A DNA stretch of 64,000 nt, taken from positions 1-64,000 of the forward strand of contig JAMXLF010000011.1 in the NCBI GenBank assembly GCA_024281055.1, given 5' to 3'. Source of the DNA: Geobacteraceae bacterium (GTDB taxonomy: Bacteria; Desulfobacterota; Desulfuromonadia; Geobacterales; Geobacteraceae). The notes beneath the pieces are model-generated. The model was not told the DNA's origin. It did not search any database and was given only the letters and a program-made list of their open reading frames with translations. Shown here piece after piece: positions 40,063-61,603 of the stretch. The stretch's first letter is position 1; the number at the start of each line of letters is the position of its first letter. Both the position numbers and the translations under genes were made by a program.

Positions 40063-40878
40063 ATGCTGACTGATGAACAGATCGAACGCTACTCCCGCCA
40101 CATCATGCTCAAGGAGGTCGGGGGAAAGGGGCAGAAGAAGCTCTTCGACGGCAAGGTAATGATGATCGGCGCCGGCGGGCTCGGCTCCCCCATCGCCCTC
40201 TACCTGGCGGCCGCCGGCGTGGGGACAATAGGGATCGCAGATGCAGATGTGGTGGACCTTTCCAACCTGCAGCGGCAGATCGCTCACCACACCCGGGACA
40301 TCGGCACGCCGAAGGTGGAGTCGGCAAAGGCAAAGATGACGGCCATGAACCCGGACGTCACGGTCAATACCTACGAGACATGGGTGAACGCCGCCAACGT
40401 CCGGGAGATCATCGCCGGCTACGATTTCGTCATCGACGGCACCGACAACTTCGCCGCAAAGTTCGTCATCAACGACGCCTGCGTGCTGGCCGGCAAACCC
40501 TATTCCCACGGCGGCATCCTCCAGTTCGACGGCCAGACCATCACCGTACAGCCGGGAGAATCGGCCTGTTACCGCTGCATTTTCCCCACGCCGCCGCCGA
40601 AGGACGCCATTCCCACCTGCTCCCGGGCCGGGGTGATCGGCGTTCTGCCAGGGGTAATCGGGACCATCCAGGCAACGGAGGCTGTAAAGTTCCTCCTGGG
40701 GAAAGGGGAACTCCTCACCGGTAGGCTCCTCACCTACAACGCCCTGCGGATGAAGTTCCGCGAGGTGCCGATCAGGAAAAACCCCAGGTGCCCCATCTGC
40801 GGGGATAACCCGACCATCACCGACCTCGTGGACGAACTGGACGCAATGAATGTCTGCGACATTCAAAATAACAAATAA
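40063..40878 (+). CDS. MoeB/ThiF-family adenylyltransferase (ThiS/CysO-type activator)
   Basis: An E1-like enzyme that adenylates the C-terminal glycine of a ubiquitin-like sulfur carrier. The 271-residue protein has RYSRHIMLKEVGGKGQKKL, the nucleotide site MMIGAGGLGSPIALYLAAAGVG, DNF...Zn-binding CxxC pairs (CYRC, CPIC) and the loop PTCSRAGVIGVLPGVIG. Its position ahead of a JAMM-peptidase remnant and sulfite reductase suggests a role in CysO-like cysteine or thiamine/molybdopterin sulfur transfer. The last residues (DIQNNK) are coded by the heptamer array that begins at the 3' end. Confidence 0.92.
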   Translation: MLTDEQIERYSRHIMLKEVGGKGQKKLFDGKVMMIGAGGLGSPIALYLAAAGVGTIGIADADVVDLSNLQRQIAHHTRDIGTPKVESAKAKMTAMNPDVTVNTYETWVNAANVREIIAGYDFVIDGTDNFAAKFVINDACVLAGKPYSHGGILQFDGQTITVQPGESACYRCIFPTPPPKDAIPTCSRAGVIGVLPGVIGTIQATEAVKFLLGKGELLTGRLLTYNALRMKFREVPIRKNPRCPICGDNPTITDLVDELDAMNVCDIQNNK

Positions 40879-40968
40879 CAAATTCCAAATTCCAAACAAT
40901 TCGAAAATAACCAATTTGGTTGAGATTTAATGCTTGGAATTTGTTTGTAATTTAGTGCTTGAGATTTG
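40864..40968. repeat. Inverted heptamer array 1 (CAAATTC-type)
   Basis: Seven-base units such as ACAAATA, ACAAATT, CCAAATT, CCAAACA run leftward of a perfect 13-base centre AACCAATTTGGTT (40909-40921); units such as TTGAGAT, TTGGAAT and TTGTTTG run out on the other side. The array is AT-rich, provides the moeB-like stop codon, and ends one base before a truncated gene. Confidence 0.75.
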
Positions 40969-40969
40969 A

Positions 40970-41146
40970 GACCATTCCCACCCGGAGAGCCCGGCGCGCC
41001 CCTCGGCGGAGGACATTCGCCTTGCCCTCACCCCCGATGTTTCCTGCGCTATCGTCTCCCTCATCGAACACGACAACCCGGTGCTGAAGTCGTTCCGGAT
41101 CAGTACAGGAACCGTGATGCCGGAAGAGATCGATATCATCCCCTGA
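40970..41146 (+). pseudogene. C-terminal fragment of a JAMM/Mov34 metallopeptidase (Mec-like)
   Basis: The frame reads DHSHPESPARPSAEDIRLAL and continues TPDVSCAIVSLI...VLKSFRISTGTVMPEEIDIIP to a stop. HSHP followed by S and D at the right spacing is the zinc-binding part of the JAMM motif found in bacterial Mec-type peptidases that cleave cysteine from a thiocarboxylated carrier protein. The N-terminal half, including the catalytic glutamate, is missing: a stop codon and the heptamer array stand immediately upstream. MoeB-like and Mec genes are often adjacent, so the array appears to mark the deletion. Confidence 0.75.
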
Positions 41147-45004: not shown

Positions 45005-45007
45005 TTA

Positions 45008-45057
45008 AACACATCTGTCAGCTATCCAAAAAAACACATCTGTCAGCTATCCAAAAA
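45008..45057. repeat. Perfect 25-base tandem duplication in the cysH leader
   Basis: Two identical, adjacent 25-base units (45008-45032 and 45033-45057), each containing CATCTGTCAGCTATCC, start right after the -10 box. They would be the first 50 bases of the cysH mRNA. Confidence 0.9.
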
Positions 45058-45810: not shown

Positions 45811-45820
45811 CGCGGCGAAA

Positions 45821-45890
45821 GGATGAAGGTTGAATTATGAATTATGAAAAGGGGTTAGTTTCATCCTTCATCCTTCATAATTCATCCTTC
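45821..45890. repeat. Inverted heptamer array 2 (GGATGAA/TTATGAA-type)
   Basis: GGATGAA GGTTGAA then two TTATGAA units (45821-45848), an 11-base spacer, then TTCATCC twice, TTCATAA, TTCATCC (45860-45887). All units share NNNTGAA on one strand. It begins 11 bases after the cysH stop and ends just before the cysD ribosome site. Confidence 0.85.
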
Positions 45891-45913: not shown

Positions 45914-46819
45914 ATGAGCGAAACGTTGACCCACCTGCAACAGCTCGAAGCTGAGAGCATCCACATCATCCGCGAAGTGGTGGCCGAATTCGCCAACCCG
46001 GTGATGCTTTACTCCATCGGCAAGGATTCGGCGATCATGCTCCACCTGGCGCGCAAGGCGTTCTACCCGGCACCGCCGCCGTTTCCGCTTCTGCACGTCG
46101 ACACGACCTGGAAATTCCGTGAGATGATCGCATTCCGCGACAGAATGGCGAAAGAATGCGGTCTCGACCTGATCGTGCACGTCAACGAGGAGGGGGTGAG
46201 CAAGGGGATTTCCCCCTTCACCCATGGCTCGGCGCTCTACACCGACGTCATGAAGACCGAGGGGCTGAAGCAGGCCCTGGACAAGTATAGGTTCGACGCG
46301 GCCTTCGGCGGGGCCCGCCGGGACGAGGAAAAATCCCGGGCCAAGGAGCGGATATTCTCCTTCCGCAGCGCCAACCACCGCTGGGACCCCAAGAACCAGC
46401 GCCCGGAGCTCTGGAACCTCTACAACACCCGGATCAAGCCGGGGGAGAGCATCCGGGTCTTCCCCCTCTCCAACTGGACCGAGCTGGACGTCTGGCAGTA
46501 CATCCACCTGGAGAACATTCCCATCGTGCCGCTCTACTATGCCGCCGTGCGGCCGGTGGTGGAGCGGGACGGCATGCTGATCATGGTGGACGACGAGCGC
46601 CTGGAGCTCAAACCGGGCGAGAAGGTGGAGTACAAGTCGGTCCGCTTCCGCACCCTCGGGTGCTATCCCCTCACCGGTGCCGTGGAGTCGACCGCTGACA
46701 CCCTGCCGCAGATCATCCAGGAGATGCTCCTCACCCGCACGTCGGAGCGCCAGGGACGCCTGATCGATCATGACCAGGCCGGTTCAATGGAAAAGAAGAA
46801 ACAAGAGGGCTATTTCTGA
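45914..46819 (+). CDS. cysD: Sulfate adenylyltransferase subunit 2
   Basis: The catalytic PP-loop subunit of ATP sulfurylase, activating sulfate to APS. The 301-residue product starts [52 protein letters not shown], with the pyrophosphatase loop SIGKDS, and has [21 protein letters not shown] and [16 protein letters not shown]. The ATG at 45914 follows GGAGAACCG. It shares one base with cysN. Confidence 0.97.
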
Positions 46820-48495
46820 TGGCACACCAATCGGACCTGATCGAAAAGGATATCCTCGCGTACCTGAAGAGCCAGGAGGAGAAGTCGCTCCTTCGCTTCA
46901 TCACCTGCGGCAGCGTGGACGACGGCAAGAGCACCCTGATCGGACGGCTCCTCTGGGATTCGAAGATGGTCTTCGAGGACCAGCTGGCGGCGCTGGAGGT
47001 GGACTCGAAGAAAGTCGGCACCCAGGGAGGGGCCATCGACTATGCGCTTCTGCTGGACGGGCTGCAGGCAGAGCGGGAACAGGGGATCACCATCGACGTG
47101 GCCTACCGCTTCTTCTCCACCGACCGGCGCAAGTTCATCGTCGCCGACACCCCCGGCCACGAACAGTACACCCGCAACATGGTCACCGGTGCCTCCACGG
47201 CGAAAGTGGCGGTCATTCTCGTCGATGCCCGCAAGGGGCTCCTGACCCAGACCCGCCGCCACAGCTACCTGGTCTCCCTGGTCGGCATCCGCCACGTGGT
47301 GCTGGCGGTCAACAAGATGGACCTCATCGACTTCGACCGGGAGAAGTTCGATGCCATTGTCGGCGATTATCGCGAATTCGCCGTCCCCCTCGGCTTCGAC
47401 TCGATCACGGCGATCCCGATCTCGGCCCTGAACGGCGACAACATCATCGAGTCGAGCGGCAATACCCCCTGGTACCAGGGACAGACGCTGATGAACCACC
47501 TGGAGACGGTCCGGGTCGAGGACGATACGAAGAACCTCCCGTTCCGGCTGCCGGTCCAGTGGGTCAACCGTCCCCATCTTGATTTCCGCGGCTTCTGCGG
47601 CACCATCGCCTCGGGCTCGATACGACCGGGAGACGAGCTGCAGGTGGCGTCGTCGGGGCGCACCAGCCGCGTAGCCAGGATCATCACCATGAACGGCGAT
47701 CTGGATGAGGGGGTGGCGGGACAGGCGGTGACCCTTACCTTGACCTCCGAGATCGACATAAGCCGGGGCGACATGCTTTCGCCGCCGGATGCTCCACCAC
47801 GGCTCTCCCGGCATCCCGAGGCGCACCTGGTTTGGATGCATGACGAACCCCTGCAACCGGGGCAGGTCTACCTGGTGAAGACCGCTTCAGCGGTCACCCC
47901 TGGCAGGGTATCGCGCGTCCAGTATGCGGTGGACGTCAACACGCTGGAACAGAAACAGGCGCCGACGCTGGGGCTCAACGGAATCGGCGTCGTCCGGCTT
48001 GAGCTGGATCGAGCTGTTGCCCTCGATCCGTACCGGCAGAACCGCGAAACCGGGAGCTTCATCCTCATCGACCGGTTCAGCAACGCTACGGTCGCTGCAG
48101 GGATGGTGATCTCAGCGGCGCCGGTCGAGGCGCAGACGACCCGGCCGGAGCGGGGAACGGGAATCACGGAGGAAGCTGGCTTCCTCCCGCGGTGCTTCAG
48201 CCTCACCGAGCTCACCATCAGCGGAACCGAGTTGGGGGTGGCGGATATCACCCGGGAATGGGGTCCGATCGAGTTCGAGGTGTCGGCCGGCTTCCTCGAC
48301 TACCTCGGCAAAGGGAACCGGGTCATCTTCCGGCTTCGGGACGTGGGGCAGCTGGAGCCGGTGGCCCGCATGGCCTTCGAAAACCATCTCAACTTCGAGT
48401 TCGGCCGGGATCGGGACCGGATCAACGTGATCCTTTACCGGGATCAGCAGATTTGCAATTCGGCCCATGCGGACCTGCTTGGCGGGGGGCTGTGA
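46819..48495 (+). CDS. cysN: Sulfate adenylyltransferase subunit 1 (GTPase)
   Basis: The EF-Tu-like GTPase that drives APS formation by CysD. The 558-residue product has LLRFITCGSVDDGKSTLIGRLLWDSK, EREQGITIDVAYRFF, DTPGHEQYTRNMVTGAS and NKMDL, then beta-barrels. It ends without an APS kinase (CysC) domain, consistent with a pathway that reduces APS directly. TGATG coupling with cysD is present. Confidence 0.97.
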   Translation: MAHQSDLIEKDILAYLKSQEEKSLLRFITCGSVDDGKSTLIGRLLWDSKMVFEDQLAALEVDSKKVGTQGGAIDYALLLDGLQAEREQGITIDVAYRFFSTDRRKFIVADTPGHEQYTRNMVTGASTAKVAVILVDARKGLLTQTRRHSYLVSLVGIRHVVLAVNKMDLIDFDREKFDAIVGDYREFAVPLGFDSITAIPISALNGDNIIESSGNTPWYQGQTLMNHLETVRVEDDTKNLPFRLPVQWVNRPHLDFRGFCGTIASGSIRPGDELQVASSGRTSRVARIITMNGDLDEGVAGQAVTLTLTSEIDISRGDMLSPPDAPPRLSRHPEAHLVWMHDEPLQPGQVYLVKTASAVTPGRVSRVQYAVDVNTLEQKQAPTLGLNGIGVVRLELDRAVALDPYRQNRETGSFILIDRFSNATVAAGMVISAAPVEAQTTRPERGTGITEEAGFLPRCFSLTELTISGTELGVADITREWGPIEFEVSAGFLDYLGKGNRVIFRLRDVGQLEPVARMAFENHLNFEFGRDRDRINVILYRDQQICNSAHADLLGGGL

Positions 48496-48584: not shown

Positions 48585-48690
48585 CTTCTTATCGAGAGTG
48601 GTGGAGGGACAGGCCCTGCGAAACCACAGCAACCGGCTCCGAGGAGCGTCAGGTGCTAAATCCTGCCGAAAGGCGAAGATGAGAGAGGTG
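48585..48690 (+). promoter_or_regulatory. SAM-I (S-box) riboswitch upstream of metX
   Basis: The signature runs CTTATCGAGAGTGGTGGAGG, then GCAACCGGC, GTGCTAAATCCTGCC and GATGAGAG, which is the classical SAM-I aptamer with its closing P1 stem. A terminator hairpin follows, so high S-adenosylmethionine should stop transcription before metX. Confidence 0.96.
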
Positions 48691-48758: not shown

Positions 48759-49868
48759 ATGTACACCGGTATGGTAGAAGAAAAATCCATAACCTTCGAC
48801 ACCGACCTCCGCCTGGAAAGCGGGCGGATCCTCGGGCCGATCACCCTCGCCTACGAGACCTACGGGAAACTCAACGCCGACAGGTCGAACGCGATTCTCG
48901 TTGCCCATGCCTGGACCGGCAACGCCCACCTGGCGGGGAAATACAGCGAGGATGACACGAAACCGGGATGGTGGGACGCCATCGTCGGCCCGGGGAGGCT
49001 TCTCGACACCGATCGCTGGTGCGTCATCTGTTCCAACGTGCTCGGCTCCTGCTACGGCTCCACCGGCCCCGCCTCCGTGAATCCCAAGACCGGCAAAAAG
49101 TATAACCTCTCCTTCCCGGTCATCACCGTGCGCGACATGGTGCGGGCGCAGAAACTCCTCATCGACCACCTGGGGATCGAAAAACTCGTCACCGTCCTTG
49201 GGGGAAGCATGGGGGGTATGCAGGCCCTCGAATGGGCCACCCAGTTTCCCGACCGGATCGCCTCGGCGGTGGTGCTGGCCACCAGTCCACGCCCCTCGGC
49301 CCAAGCCATCGCGCTCAATGCCGTGGCCCGCTGGGCCATCTTCAACGACCCGACCTGGAAAAAAGGGGAATACCGGAAAAACCCCAAGGACGGCCTGGCC
49401 CTGGCCCGCGGCATCGGCCACATCACCTTTCTCTCCGACGAGTCGATGACCGCCAAGTTCGGCCGGCGCTTCTCCGCCCGGGACGGCCTGTTCGACTTCT
49501 TCGGCCAGTTCGAGGTGGAGCGCTACCTCTCCTACAACGGTTACAACTTCGTCGACCGCTTCGACGCCAACTCCTTTCTCTACCTCGCCAAGGCCCTCGA
49601 CCTCTACGATGTGGCCTGGGGGTGTGAGTCCCTCGAAGAGGCGTTCGCCCCGGTCACCGCGCCGATCCAGTTCTTCGCTTTCACCTCCGACTGGCTCTAC
49701 CCCCCCTACCAGACCGAGGAGATGGCACGGGCGCTCACGAACCTCGGCAAGTCGGCGGAGTACCACCTCATCCCGTCATCCTACGGCCACGACGCCTTCC
49801 TCCTGGAGCACGAGACCTTCGCACCGCTGGTGCGGGGGTTTCTCGAAAGCGTGAGACGTGAGATGTGA
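48759..49868 (+). CDS. metX: Homoserine O-acetyltransferase
   Basis: An alpha/beta-hydrolase that acetylates homoserine for methionine synthesis. The 369-residue protein has [28 protein letters not shown], the nucleophile elbow [15 protein letters not shown] and the C-terminal acid and His in SDWLYPPYQ and [11 protein letters not shown]. Two starts are possible (48759, 48771); neither has a strong ribosome site, perhaps because the leader ends in the terminator. The final residues VRREM are coded by a heptamer array. Controlled by the SAM-I riboswitch. Confidence 0.95.
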
Positions 49869-49922
49869 GGCGTAAGAAGTTTTCACGTCTAGCGTCTAGC
49901 GTCTAACGTTTCACTTTTCACT
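49850..49922. repeat. Inverted heptamer array 3 (CGTGAGA-type)
   Basis: CGTGAGA twice, TGTGAGG and CGTAAGA (49850-49877), a three-base centre, then TTTCACG, TCTAGCG twice, TCTAACG and TTTCACT twice (49881-49922). The left arm codes the last residues and stop of metX; the right arm, read on the minus strand, codes the last residues and stop of the convergent glycosyltransferase gene. Confidence 0.85.
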
Positions 49923-50932
49923 CTTTTGTACAGCTCCAGGTACTCCTCCGCCTCCCGCTCCGGGGGGAAACTTTGCAGAACATACTCCCGTCCCTGCTTG
50001 CCGAGCCTCTCGCGGAGTCGTCCATCCGCCATGAGCTGCGCGGCCTTGGTATGGAATTCCGCCTCGTCCCGGTAGAGCAGGCCGGTCACCCCGTCCTTCA
50101 CGAGGAAGCGGTTTCCCTCTATGGCCGCGGCCATGACCGGCTTGCCGCACGCGAGCGCCTCGAGAAGGCTGTTGGCCATCCCCCCTTCGAAGAGCGAAGT
50201 GTTGAGGACCACGTCCGCCCGCCGGTAGAGGCAACCCATGGCCTCATGGCTTACTTCCCCCAGGTAATGGGCGAAGGGGTAGCGTTCGAGCCCCTCCATT
50301 ACCCGGGCCGCGTACCCCGGATCGATCACCGGCCCTGCGAGGAGGAACCTGGTCCGGGCATCTTCGGCGTAAAGCTCGGCCAGCGGCGCCAGGGGAGACA
50401 GGACCTGCTTGACCGGCCGCAGCCCCGCCGGCAGGAGAAAGGTGAACGCCCCGGCCGGGAAGAAAACTCCCGCCGGTCCTGCACAACTGTCGCCCGGTTG
50501 CTCCACTCCCTGGGGGATGACGATTGTTCGCCCCGTGAGGGTCGGGCAGTGGAGCGAGAGCATCTTTTTGATGTCCGGGGCGAACGCCACCAGGCGGGCA
50601 GCGCCGTGGAGGACCGCGCGGGTCTCCTCGCGACGGCTGTCGATCAGCGCCTCATGGACGTCGGTGCCGGTCAGGGTGACGACATAGGGGATGCCGGTTT
50701 CCCGGGCAATGGCCCGGGCCACCCGGCCGCCGGACCAGCCGTGAAAGGCATGGATCAGCACCGGAGACTCCGCGGCCACGTGCCGGGCGATCTCGCCCGC
50801 GGCCATGGCATCCAGGGAATAGACCTCAACCCGGCAGCCACGGTCGGTCAGGGAGCGCTCGACGCGCCGCACCGTCACCGCATTGCCGCGGACGGCAGGA
50901 TAATAGTGGGGGGTGATGATGGCAATCCTCAC
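49889..50932 (-). CDS. Glycosyltransferase family 4-like protein
   Basis: The protein (about 347 aa) has an N-terminal Rossmann domain (RIAIITPHYYPAVRGNAVTVRRVERSL) and a C-terminal GT1-type domain with the E-x7-E signature in FEGGMANSLLEALACGKPVMAAAIEGN. It should move sugar from a nucleotide sugar onto an unidentified acceptor. I prefer the GTG at 50932, with AGGGAG upstream and a normal family N-terminus; an ATG at 50959 is possible. The C-terminus (KSETLDARR) comes from the heptamer array. Confidence 0.88.
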   Translation of the reverse strand: MRIAIITPHYYPAVRGNAVTVRRVERSLTDRGCRVEVYSLDAMAAGEIARHVAAESPVLIHAFHGWSGGRVARAIARETGIPYVVTLTGTDVHEALIDSRREETRAVLHGAARLVAFAPDIKKMLSLHCPTLTGRTIVIPQGVEQPGDSCAGPAGVFFPAGAFTFLLPAGLRPVKQVLSPLAPLAELYAEDARTRFLLAGPVIDPGYAARVMEGLERYPFAHYLGEVSHEAMGCLYRRADVVLNTSLFEGGMANSLLEALACGKPVMAAAIEGNRFLVKDGVTGLLYRDEAEFHTKAAQLMADGRLRERLGKQGREYVLQSFPPEREAEEYLELYKRVKSETLDARR

Positions 50933-59527: not shown

Positions 59528-60265
59528 TCACCCTCTCCGCCGTAGATTGGCAAGGACCTCATCCCGGGACAACTCCTTCTTCCGGACCAGGTGCTCGATC
59601 TGCCGGCTCATGGCCATCCGCTCCCCATCCTTCATGTTCTCCTTGAGGAGGACGAACACCGGGATGTTCCGGGTCTGGGGATAGAGGCGCAACCGCTCGA
59701 GGAGTTCGAAAACGACCATGTCGGGAAGCATGAGCGCGCAGAAGATCAGGTATTGATGCCCGGTCGTCGCCAGGGCCACGGCTTCCTTCCCGGTGTAAGC
59801 GTTGACCACCTCGTAGCCGAGTTGTTCCAGAGCTCTGGCAATGGTTTCTTCCCCCTTGCGGGAGATGATGAGTGCCTGGAGGTCGTAATCCTCGGTATCT
59901 TCCGTCAGGCCGAGTACCGCCAGCCGCTCTGCCACGTAACCGTTATCGGGAGGAAGGGTAAAGAAACCAGCCACCGGAAAGACCCCGCCGACTTTCCCTT
60001 CCTCGCTCAGATGAACGAGCAGCACCGGGATGTCCCGGGTGGCCGGGTCGGCCTTGAGGCGCAAGAGCAGCCCCCACCCGTCTGTCGCGTGGGGCGAGAT
60101 GTCGAGGATGATCCCGAGCGGTCTGCCATCGGCAAGATCTTCGATAGCCGCCTGCCGCGCCCGGAAGCCACCCTGCGCCAAGTAGTCCAGGATAACAGCC
60201 CCCCGGTCCTTTTCCTTCCCCACTCCCAGGATCCAGAGCTCCCGTCCGTTCTCCGTTTCTGCCAT
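59528..60265 (-). CDS. Tandem receiver-like protein (partly degenerate)
   Basis: The 245-residue protein has two CheY-like modules. The first keeps an aspartate in GIILDISPHATDGWGLLLRLKADPATRDIPVLLVHL. The second reads YLIFCALMLPDMVVFELLERLRLYPQTRNIPVFVLLK, with Ala where the phosphoacceptor Asp belongs, so it should not be phosphorylated. There is no output domain. The ATG at 60265 begins MAETENGRELWILGVGKEKDRG; the extension to 60337 is not conserved. Divergent to the DUF362 gene. Confidence 0.75.
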   Translation of the reverse strand: MAETENGRELWILGVGKEKDRGAVILDYLAQGGFRARQAAIEDLADGRPLGIILDISPHATDGWGLLLRLKADPATRDIPVLLVHLSEEGKVGGVFPVAGFFTLPPDNGYVAERLAVLGLTEDTEDYDLQALIISRKGEETIARALEQLGYEVVNAYTGKEAVALATTGHQYLIFCALMLPDMVVFELLERLRLYPQTRNIPVFVLLKENMKDGERMAMSRQIEHLVRKKELSRDEVLANLRRRG

Positions 60266-60406
60266 GTCAGCTCCCGTCAGCCTGCCGTTATTGCAGCTTC
60301 TAATTAAACTAGATACCACATTTCCCGCCAATGGCAAGTAAATTCTTCCCCCTGCCCCTTACAACCGCTTGATAGTCAACGCTTTGTGTGGTAGCGTTCT
60401 CAAAAC

Positions 60407-60478
60407 CGTGAAAGGTGAATGGTGAAAGGTGAATAACGAATCGATTCACCCTTCACCGTTCACCCTTCACCATTCACG
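60407..60478. repeat. Inverted heptamer array 4 (GGTGAAN-type)
   Basis: CGTGAAA, GGTGAAT, GGTGAAA, GGTGAAT, AACGAAT (60407-60441), a two-base centre, then ATTCACC, CTTCACC, GTTCACC, CTTCACC, ATTCACG (60444-60478). Five units face five. It ends three bases before the ribosome site of the DUF362 gene. Confidence 0.88.
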
Positions 60479-60496
60479 TCTTGGGGGGTACCACGA

Positions 60497-61603
60497 ATGA
60501 CCAGCAAAGTATACTTCGCCGACATGCGGGCGGGACACAAGGAAAACCTCTTTACCAAGATCGGCGGACTGCTCGCGAGCTGCGACATTCGGGAGACGAT
60601 CGCCAACGGCGACCTGGTCGCGGTAAAGGTCCACTTCGGCGAACGGGGGAACCACACCTTCGTCCGCCCCATTTTTGTAAGACGGGTGGTGGACGAGATC
60701 AAGGCATGCGGCGGAAGCCCCTTTCTCACCGACTCCTCCACCCTCTATCCCGGGGAGCGCAAGGAGGCGGTCTCGGCCTTGGTCAACGCCATAGAAAACG
60801 GTTTTGCCTTCGCCGTGGTCGGCGCGCCGCTCATCATGGGCGACGGCCTGCGGGGGCATACGGCCGTGCCGGTCGAGATCGCCGGCGAGATTCTGGACAG
60901 GGTGAGTATCGGTGCGGAGATCGCCGAGGCCGATGCCCTTGTGGCGGTCTCCCACTTCAAGTGCCACGAACTAACCGGTTTCGGCGGCGCCCTGAAGAAC
61001 CTCGGCATGGGGTGTGCGAGCCGCGAGGGAAAGCTCGTCCAGCACTCCAACGTAGCTCCGGTCGTGGCGGAGAAATACTGCAGCGGCTGCGCCCTCTGCC
61101 TGAAAGCCTGCGTCCACGATGCCATCGCCATCATCGAGGGGAGCGCCCGGATCGACCCGGCCAAATGCGCCGGCTGCGGCCGCTGCATCACCGCCTGCCA
61201 GAAAAAAGCGATCCAGGTCCAGTGGAACGAGGCCACCCCCCTCGTCATGAAGAAGATGTGCGAATACGCGCTCGGCGCGGTCCGGGGGAAAGAGGGGAAA
61301 TGCCTCTACCTCAATTTCATCACCCAGGTCTCCCCTGCCTGCGACTGCTATGGCCACGCCGATGCCCCTATCGTCAACGACATCGGCATCTGCGCGTCCA
61401 CCGACCCGGTCGCCCTCGACCAAGCCTGCGCCGACTTGGTGAACGCGGCGCCGGGCAACCCGAACACCGCCCTTGCCAGCGGCCATGAGCCGGGAGGAGA
61501 CAAGTTCCGCGGGGTGCACCCCGACATCGACTGGGAGATCCAGCTGGAGCACGGGGAAAAATTGGGGATGGGAATGCGAAAGTACGAGTTGGTGAGAATC
61601 TGA
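60497..61603 (+). CDS. DUF362-domain iron-sulfur protein
   Basis: The 368-residue protein opens with a DUF362 domain (KVYFADMRAGHKENLFTKIGGLL, VAVKVHFGERGNHTFVRPIFVRRVVDEIKACGG, AVSHFKCHELTGFGGALKNLGMGCASREGK) and carries two [4Fe-4S] motifs in its middle, CSGCALCLKACVHDAI and CAGCGRCITACQKKAI. This architecture is common in anaerobes; the reaction is not known with certainty, but electron transfer is likely. GGGGGGTACCACGA before the ATG is its ribosome site, immediately after the heptamer array. Confidence 0.9.
   Translation: MTSKVYFADMRAGHKENLFTKIGGLLASCDIRETIANGDLVAVKVHFGERGNHTFVRPIFVRRVVDEIKACGGSPFLTDSSTLYPGERKEAVSALVNAIENGFAFAVVGAPLIMGDGLRGHTAVPVEIAGEILDRVSIGAEIAEADALVAVSHFKCHELTGFGGALKNLGMGCASREGKLVQHSNVAPVVAEKYCSGCALCLKACVHDAIAIIEGSARIDPAKCAGCGRCITACQKKAIQVQWNEATPLVMKKMCEYALGAVRGKEGKCLYLNFITQVSPACDCYGHADAPIVNDIGICASTDPVALDQACADLVNAAPGNPNTALASGHEPGGDKFRGVHPDIDWEIQLEHGEKLGMGMRKYELVRI

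Follow-up and report, generated by a model that had tools for sequence, protein, structure and literature searches.

Period-7 palindromic arrays in the gene gaps of a Geobacteraceae genome, candidate mRNA hairpins with changing repeat units

Heptamer arrays in other bacteria

Arrays of heptamers in the gaps between bacterial genes have been known for decades and have so far gone unexplained. Short extragenic palindromes of the REP, BIME and REPIN type are likewise located between co-transcribed genes and have a plausible role at the level of the mRNA. The arrays presented here differ from these in that no REP core was seen, there is no dependence on a RAYT, and the arms are composed of 7-nt tandem units.

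Described relatives of the arrays are found in Geobacter metallireducens, as paired heptamer sites, and in Xanthomonas, as GGGAATC repeats. The G. metallireducens elements are tandem hepta- and octanucleotides paired on opposite strands and assigned to classes 1–3, accompanied by the Gmet_H4 heptamer elements (PMC2700814). Class 3 is composed of five heptamers, MTYCTGA, and the paired sites were read as binding sites of a global regulator (PMC2700814). G. metallireducens belongs to the same bacterial family as the present genome, and the array examined here, with about five 7-nt units in tandem on either strand, is the same kind of element; however, the units of the present genome are GTGAANG and GTTCRAN rather than MTYCTGA, which makes them another class. 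The present case also differs in the tens to hundreds of loci occupied, the several units per genome, the intercistronic placement and the fact that the turnover of units was measured. At the proBA gap, G. sulfurreducens has another multicopy sequence (PMC2700814).

The heptamers of Xanthomonas (GGGAATC) and Nostoc (GGGGAYT) have a period of 7 with free positions and were studied as G-quadruplex formers (PMC4692102). Those of Xanthomonas occupy the spaces between aligned ORFs, close to stops and starts, and are depleted between divergent ORFs; Xcc has about 70 convergent pairs, transcription of the repeats has been reported, and the unit and pair type are mostly kept between species (PMC4692102). 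The intergenic period-7 arrays described below also favor gaps between aligned genes and avoid divergent gaps. In contrast, GTGAANG and GTTCRAN contain no fixed GGG run and do not qualify as G-quadruplex formers, and the arrays change units between genera. The TAACTGA repeats of Beggiatoaceae and cyanobacteria are similar in that heptamer arrays occur upstream of start codons with a patchy distribution among lineages, but they consist of a single unit and are nearly all direct, with one inverted case (PMC4679880), whereas the present arrays are paired and draw on several units. What is new here is the presence of several unit families in one genome, the replacement of units at orthologous gaps and the lack of RAYT dependence. 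Together with orthologous operon gaps that are swapped or empty and elements in decay, one such genome provides testable material.

The array upstream of the DUF362 gene

The window is the whole 64-kb stretch of DNA that was analyzed, taken from a 4.44 Mb genome in 103 contigs (99.6% complete, 3.4% contamination). Its features are collected in Table 1. By direct reading, the array spans 60408 to 60477 and consists of head-to-head GTGAANG units, four clean and one degenerate facing five, in keeping with the original prediction of five heptamers against five. When the right arm is reverse-complemented and read inwards from 60477, the units are GTGAATG, GTGAAGG, GTGAACG, GTGAAGG and GTGAATC. One base per unit varies freely, namely the sixth of GTGAANG, which is the seventh of GGTGAAN in the phasing used previously. 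The imperfect stem of about 35 bp that had been proposed was also borne out by folding, with a z-score of −4.45 as RNA (1 of 200 dinucleotide shuffles as good) and −5.71 as DNA (0 of 200). The mismatches or wobbles in the stem fall at the N positions.

Table 1. Features of the DUF362 locus and sister elements in the window.
Feature	Position	Strand	Sequence or unit	Basis or context
Left arm	60408–60435	+	GTGAAAG GTGAATG GTGAAAG GTGAATA	Direct reading; Tandem Repeats Finder; lag-7 scan
Degenerate fifth unit / loop side	60436–60442		ACGAATC	Direct reading; RNA and DNA folds
Right arm, five inverted units	60443–60477	−		Direct reading; Tandem Repeats Finder; folds
Putative DUF362 promoter	60369–60397	+	TTGATA-17-TAGCGT	Layout conserved in relatives
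DUF362 / 4Fe-4S protein gene, array in leader	60497–61603	+		ORF; Pfam DUF362 (E 2.3e-51) and Fer4 domains
Divergent neighbor, response-regulator receiver protein	59528–60265	−		Gene call; Pfam Response_reg (E 2.2e-9)
Sister element	40866–40971		AAATNNC	Left arm 40866–40896, looser right arm to about 40971
Sister element	45819–45890		ATGAANN	Between two co-directional PAPS_reduct genes
Sister element	49850–49925		GTGAGAC / GTCTAGC / GTGAAAA (mixed)	Between convergent genes

A lag-autocorrelation scan of the window identified several long arrays at lag 7 only (40866, 45819, 49850 and 60408), and none at lags 3–6, 8, 10 or 11. Since only lag 7 yields several long arrays, the DUF362 array is not a product of chance. 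The scan also supports the kinship of architecture, with other units, that had been noted for the arrays at 40864, 45821 and 49850. At the DUF362 array, no Rfam family scored above its gathering cut-off, the matches in the window being a SAM riboswitch and tRNA only. The riboswitch (RF00162, 75.5 bits) is located at 48586–48685, between genes called at 46819–48495 and 48759–49868. Two perfect 25-bp tandem copies of AAACACATCTGTCAGCTATCCAAAA are found at 45007–45057, just before a gene with a PAPS-reductase domain.

The locus had been described as a divergent promoter region. The gap is divergent; however, the array is probably not a promoter element, as it is positioned downstream of the predicted DUF362 promoter. 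Of 28 loci tested, 16 have a TTGAAN-17-TAGCGT or TACCAA layout, for which TTGAAAACGGCGCCGGTATGTGGTAGCGT is an example, ahead of the orthologous DUF362 gene. Since this conserved −35/−10-like pair places the predicted transcription start near 60404, the array is probably part of a transcribed leader. It would then open the DUF362 mRNA at its 5' end, with scarcely any transcribed sequence before it, and would be followed by a G-rich ribosome-site region at approximately 60483–60488.

From these observations and those that follow, the reading favored here, with a probability of roughly 45%, is that the arrays are intercistronic or leader hairpins with a fast turnover that act once transcribed, insulating or stabilizing the adjacent mRNA segment. 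In the case of DUF362, the imperfect hairpin would stand at the extreme 5' terminus of the message, while other elements would stand between cistrons and function like REP-type intercistronic hairpins without being REP. The fixed period of 7, the paired arms, the strong predicted hairpin and the few common unit families are consistent with this role, as is a hairpin that begins a few nucleotides after the predicted DUF362 start. Against it, a strict sigma-70 consensus scan found no promoter in the region, and the DUF362 start is a prediction. The same strong hairpin could also suggest an intrinsic transcription terminator. However, a terminator scan of the region found no GC stem followed by a T run, and members of the class sit inside operons of essential genes, making termination a highly improbable function.

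Units and placement across the genome

Pattern searches were performed genome-wide, and array scans on stretches covering about one third of the genome. Three tandem GTGAANG units (pattern GTGAANGGTGAANGGTGAA) were matched 38 times, and three tandem GTTCRAN units, the commonest, 243 times, as opposed to 0 matches for either reversed control. Thus, rather than a unique site with unconserved spacing, the genome contains many copies in both orientations with the spacing fixed at 7. The stretches, 1.373 Mb in all, contained 75 intergenic arrays at a period of 7, 58 at the double period of 14, 4 at a period of 6 and 0 at periods 8 and 10, leaving 7 as the only strongly enriched period. Scaling from 1.373 Mb or 975 kb gives about 240–300 palindromic heptamer arrays per genome, an approximate total because the stretches were taken mostly from contigs known to carry arrays.

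The units seen were GTTCRAN, GTGAANG, AAATNNC, GTGAGRN, AACTCAN, ATGAANN and GGGACTN, mostly as two facing arms. Among GTTCRAN units collected with one mismatch allowed, the initial G, T and T hardly vary, A or G stands at position 5, and any base may occupy position 7 (59 T, 111 G, 90 C, 43 A). GTTCRAN resembles the T-loop consensus of tRNA (TTCRAN), degenerate positions included, possibly by coincidence. This likeness was set aside since it is post hoc and GTTCRAN sits in a paired stem.

Merging of the arrays in 975 kb produced 66 elements, 8 of which were called inside genes, a placement that rests on crude gene prediction. The remaining 58 are intergenic: 50 between co-directional genes (24 + 26), 6 between convergent genes and 2, including the DUF362 array, between divergent genes. 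Background gaps of at least 60 nt numbered 352, 52 and 83, respectively. Elements are therefore depleted in divergent gaps (p = 0.004, Fisher) and in excess in co-directional ones (p = 0.026). Most begin no more than about 15 nt from a stop codon, in some cases overlapping it, and run almost up to the next ribosome site, ending at most about 20 nt from the following start. As a class, the elements prefer gaps between aligned genes and avoid divergent ones, the DUF362 array itself being an exception. The composition of the N bases, oriented relative to transcription, showed no strong strand bias.

A position between co-directional genes in 50 of 58 cases, usually reaching from a stop codon to the next ribosome site, argues for an mRNA-level hairpin. 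It counts against a binding site for a global regulator such as IHF/HU, as proposed for the paired repeats of G. metallireducens, because the elements are mostly between cistrons and not at promoters. While nearly invariant hexamers with a free spacer base do resemble tandem operator sites, many unrelated units share one architecture and are swapped at orthologous gaps, as described below. A regulator site is accordingly regarded as quite unlikely.

Turnover and spread among relatives

The gaps of the pyrG operon (pyrG-kdsA-kpsF) were compared with those of 20 relatives. The kdsB|pyrG gap contains GTGAGGC in the present genome, GTGAATR in G024, GTGAGTC in G011, GTTCAAN in G005, G022 and G030, GTTCTAN in G017, and a period-6 GGTARA palindrome in G019, G014, G008 and G001; in G009, G015 and G028 the gap is 34–36 nt long and carries no array. 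The kdsA|kpsF gap contains GTTCAAN in the present genome, GGGACCN in G019, GGGACTC in G014, GGAGTGA in G007, GTTCTAN in G025 and GTGCGAC in G006, together with a period-8 palindromic GCAAAGMC array in G017 and G030 (L277 and L278) and a period-9 palindromic GGGATAAAG array in G022 (L276). Since relatives carry period-8 and period-9 arrays in these gaps, a period of 7 is dominant but not obligatory. Most of the occupied, long gaps in relatives fold with z-scores of −2 to −8 whatever the unit, and the short empty gaps show no such folding. The hairpin thus seems to matter, or to recur, more than the exact sequence.

The DUF362 leader gives a similar picture. Among the orthologues L031–L110, L038 has GTGAATG arms at the equivalent position, L032 has about 13 CGGGAAC-type units and a TTCACC remnant, and L031, L034 and L099 have GGGAATC/GGGACC-like units; most of the others have no array there. 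At lptB|rpoN, the present genome has an intact element; G008 and G024 carry decayed versions that have GTTCAACGTTCGAGG and the right end in common with it, and the element is absent from G014 and G019, of the same genus. Because of this decay and absence, and of the unit swaps at orthologous gaps, the comparison indicates that elements arise, give way to others and disappear on the time scale of genera.

The comparison separates the properties that are retained (hairpin, position, period) from the sequence, which changes. Since form, period and place recur while the sequence does not, a sequence-specific regulator is disfavored, and the recurrence is compatible both with a hairpin that, once transcribed, would tune or protect adjacent mRNA segments and with a neutral repeat-making process that favors the same gaps. 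In the latter case, a neutral or selfish repeat would spread and decay without benefit in gaps that merely tolerate it. Such a repeat is a possible, though less probable, explanation. It is compatible with the patchy presence among close relatives, the birth and decay at lptB|rpoN and the several unit families at once in the genome. Tolerance alone, however, explains neither why divergent gaps are avoided nor why the paired form comes back once a unit is replaced, although divergent gaps may be shielded by the promoters that they carry.

Between the two, a hairpin role is slightly preferred, given where the elements lie and how seldom they occupy divergent gaps. It is also in line with the return of the inverted-repeat form, with its folding, after units are replaced at orthologous gaps. 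Some observations weigh the other way: close relatives manage without an array at the same gap (several DUF362 orthologues, and G009, G015 and G028 in the pyrG operon), the states of the lptB|rpoN element fit a neutral element too, and the paired form could stem from the mechanism that makes arrays and not from selection. If the arrays do act as mRNA hairpins, they would arise and decay faster than the surrounding genes, with change within arms by slippage and between arms by template switching. A few unit families would also spread.

The patterns are patchily distributed among relatives and throughout the phylum. Of 58 relatives, 35 contain GTTCRAN and 24 contain GTGAANG, as opposed to 0 for the reversed controls. 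In a phylum-wide draw of 148 genomes, GTGAANG was present in 31, and the reversed control gave 3 single hits. This bears on the proposal that local slippage alone made the arrays, every one having expanded on the spot from a short palindrome, with no genome-wide family. Homogeneous runs such as (GTTCAAG)10 at C26:11150 are in its favor, as is the standing of heptanucleotide repeats as the commonest long class in many genomes, according to the work of Mrazek as relayed in PMC4679880. No two of the 31 GTTC-family elements of the present genome agree in all six outer N bases, where independence would predict 0.6 such pairs, and this also suits growth in place. However, the same few hexamers occur at many loci and across the order, and independent slippage would not converge on common hexamers; slippage by itself is thus improbable. 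The missing N-pattern pairs and a median best match of 74% between the 31 elements rule out recent copying of whole elements.

Mobilization as REP/REPIN by a RAYT (Y1) transposase was considered since the elements are short extragenic palindromes in gene gaps and Y1 transposases are common (52 of 58 genomes). The presence of Y1 does not track the arrays, though, and the build of the arms, with a period of 7 and a free base, does not resemble that of REP hairpins. RAYT dependence was rejected with G014, which has no Y1_Tnp match yet yields 18 GTGAANG and 19 GTTCRAN hits. The chance that these are REP/REPIN elements is therefore very slight. A more speculative and rather unlikely idea is that a trans-acting system writes hairpins of a hexamer plus a free base into transcribed gaps, for example by recopying a very short template. 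If true, it would explain hundreds of like-patterned elements of which no compared pair are copies, and units swapped at fixed gaps.

The opposed N bases of the two arms pair below chance in the present genome, both in GTTCRAN (9 of 95 versus 16.9 expected, p 0.005) and in GTGAANG (3 of 27 versus 7.0 expected, p 0.03). Enforced mismatch as a general rule was dropped since relatives, mostly G045 and G053, tend the opposite way (20 of 40 versus 13.6 expected, p for excess 0.016).

Another palindromic repeat, of the GTAGGGGCGA...TCGCCCCTAC type, also fills gene gaps, including the kpsF|kdsC gap of the present genome (L173, 12240–12344) and L130. In the elements at L173, 11150–11264, and L221, 190–332, one arm is expanded to 10–16 near-identical GTTCAAG/GTTCGAG units, as slippage would give.
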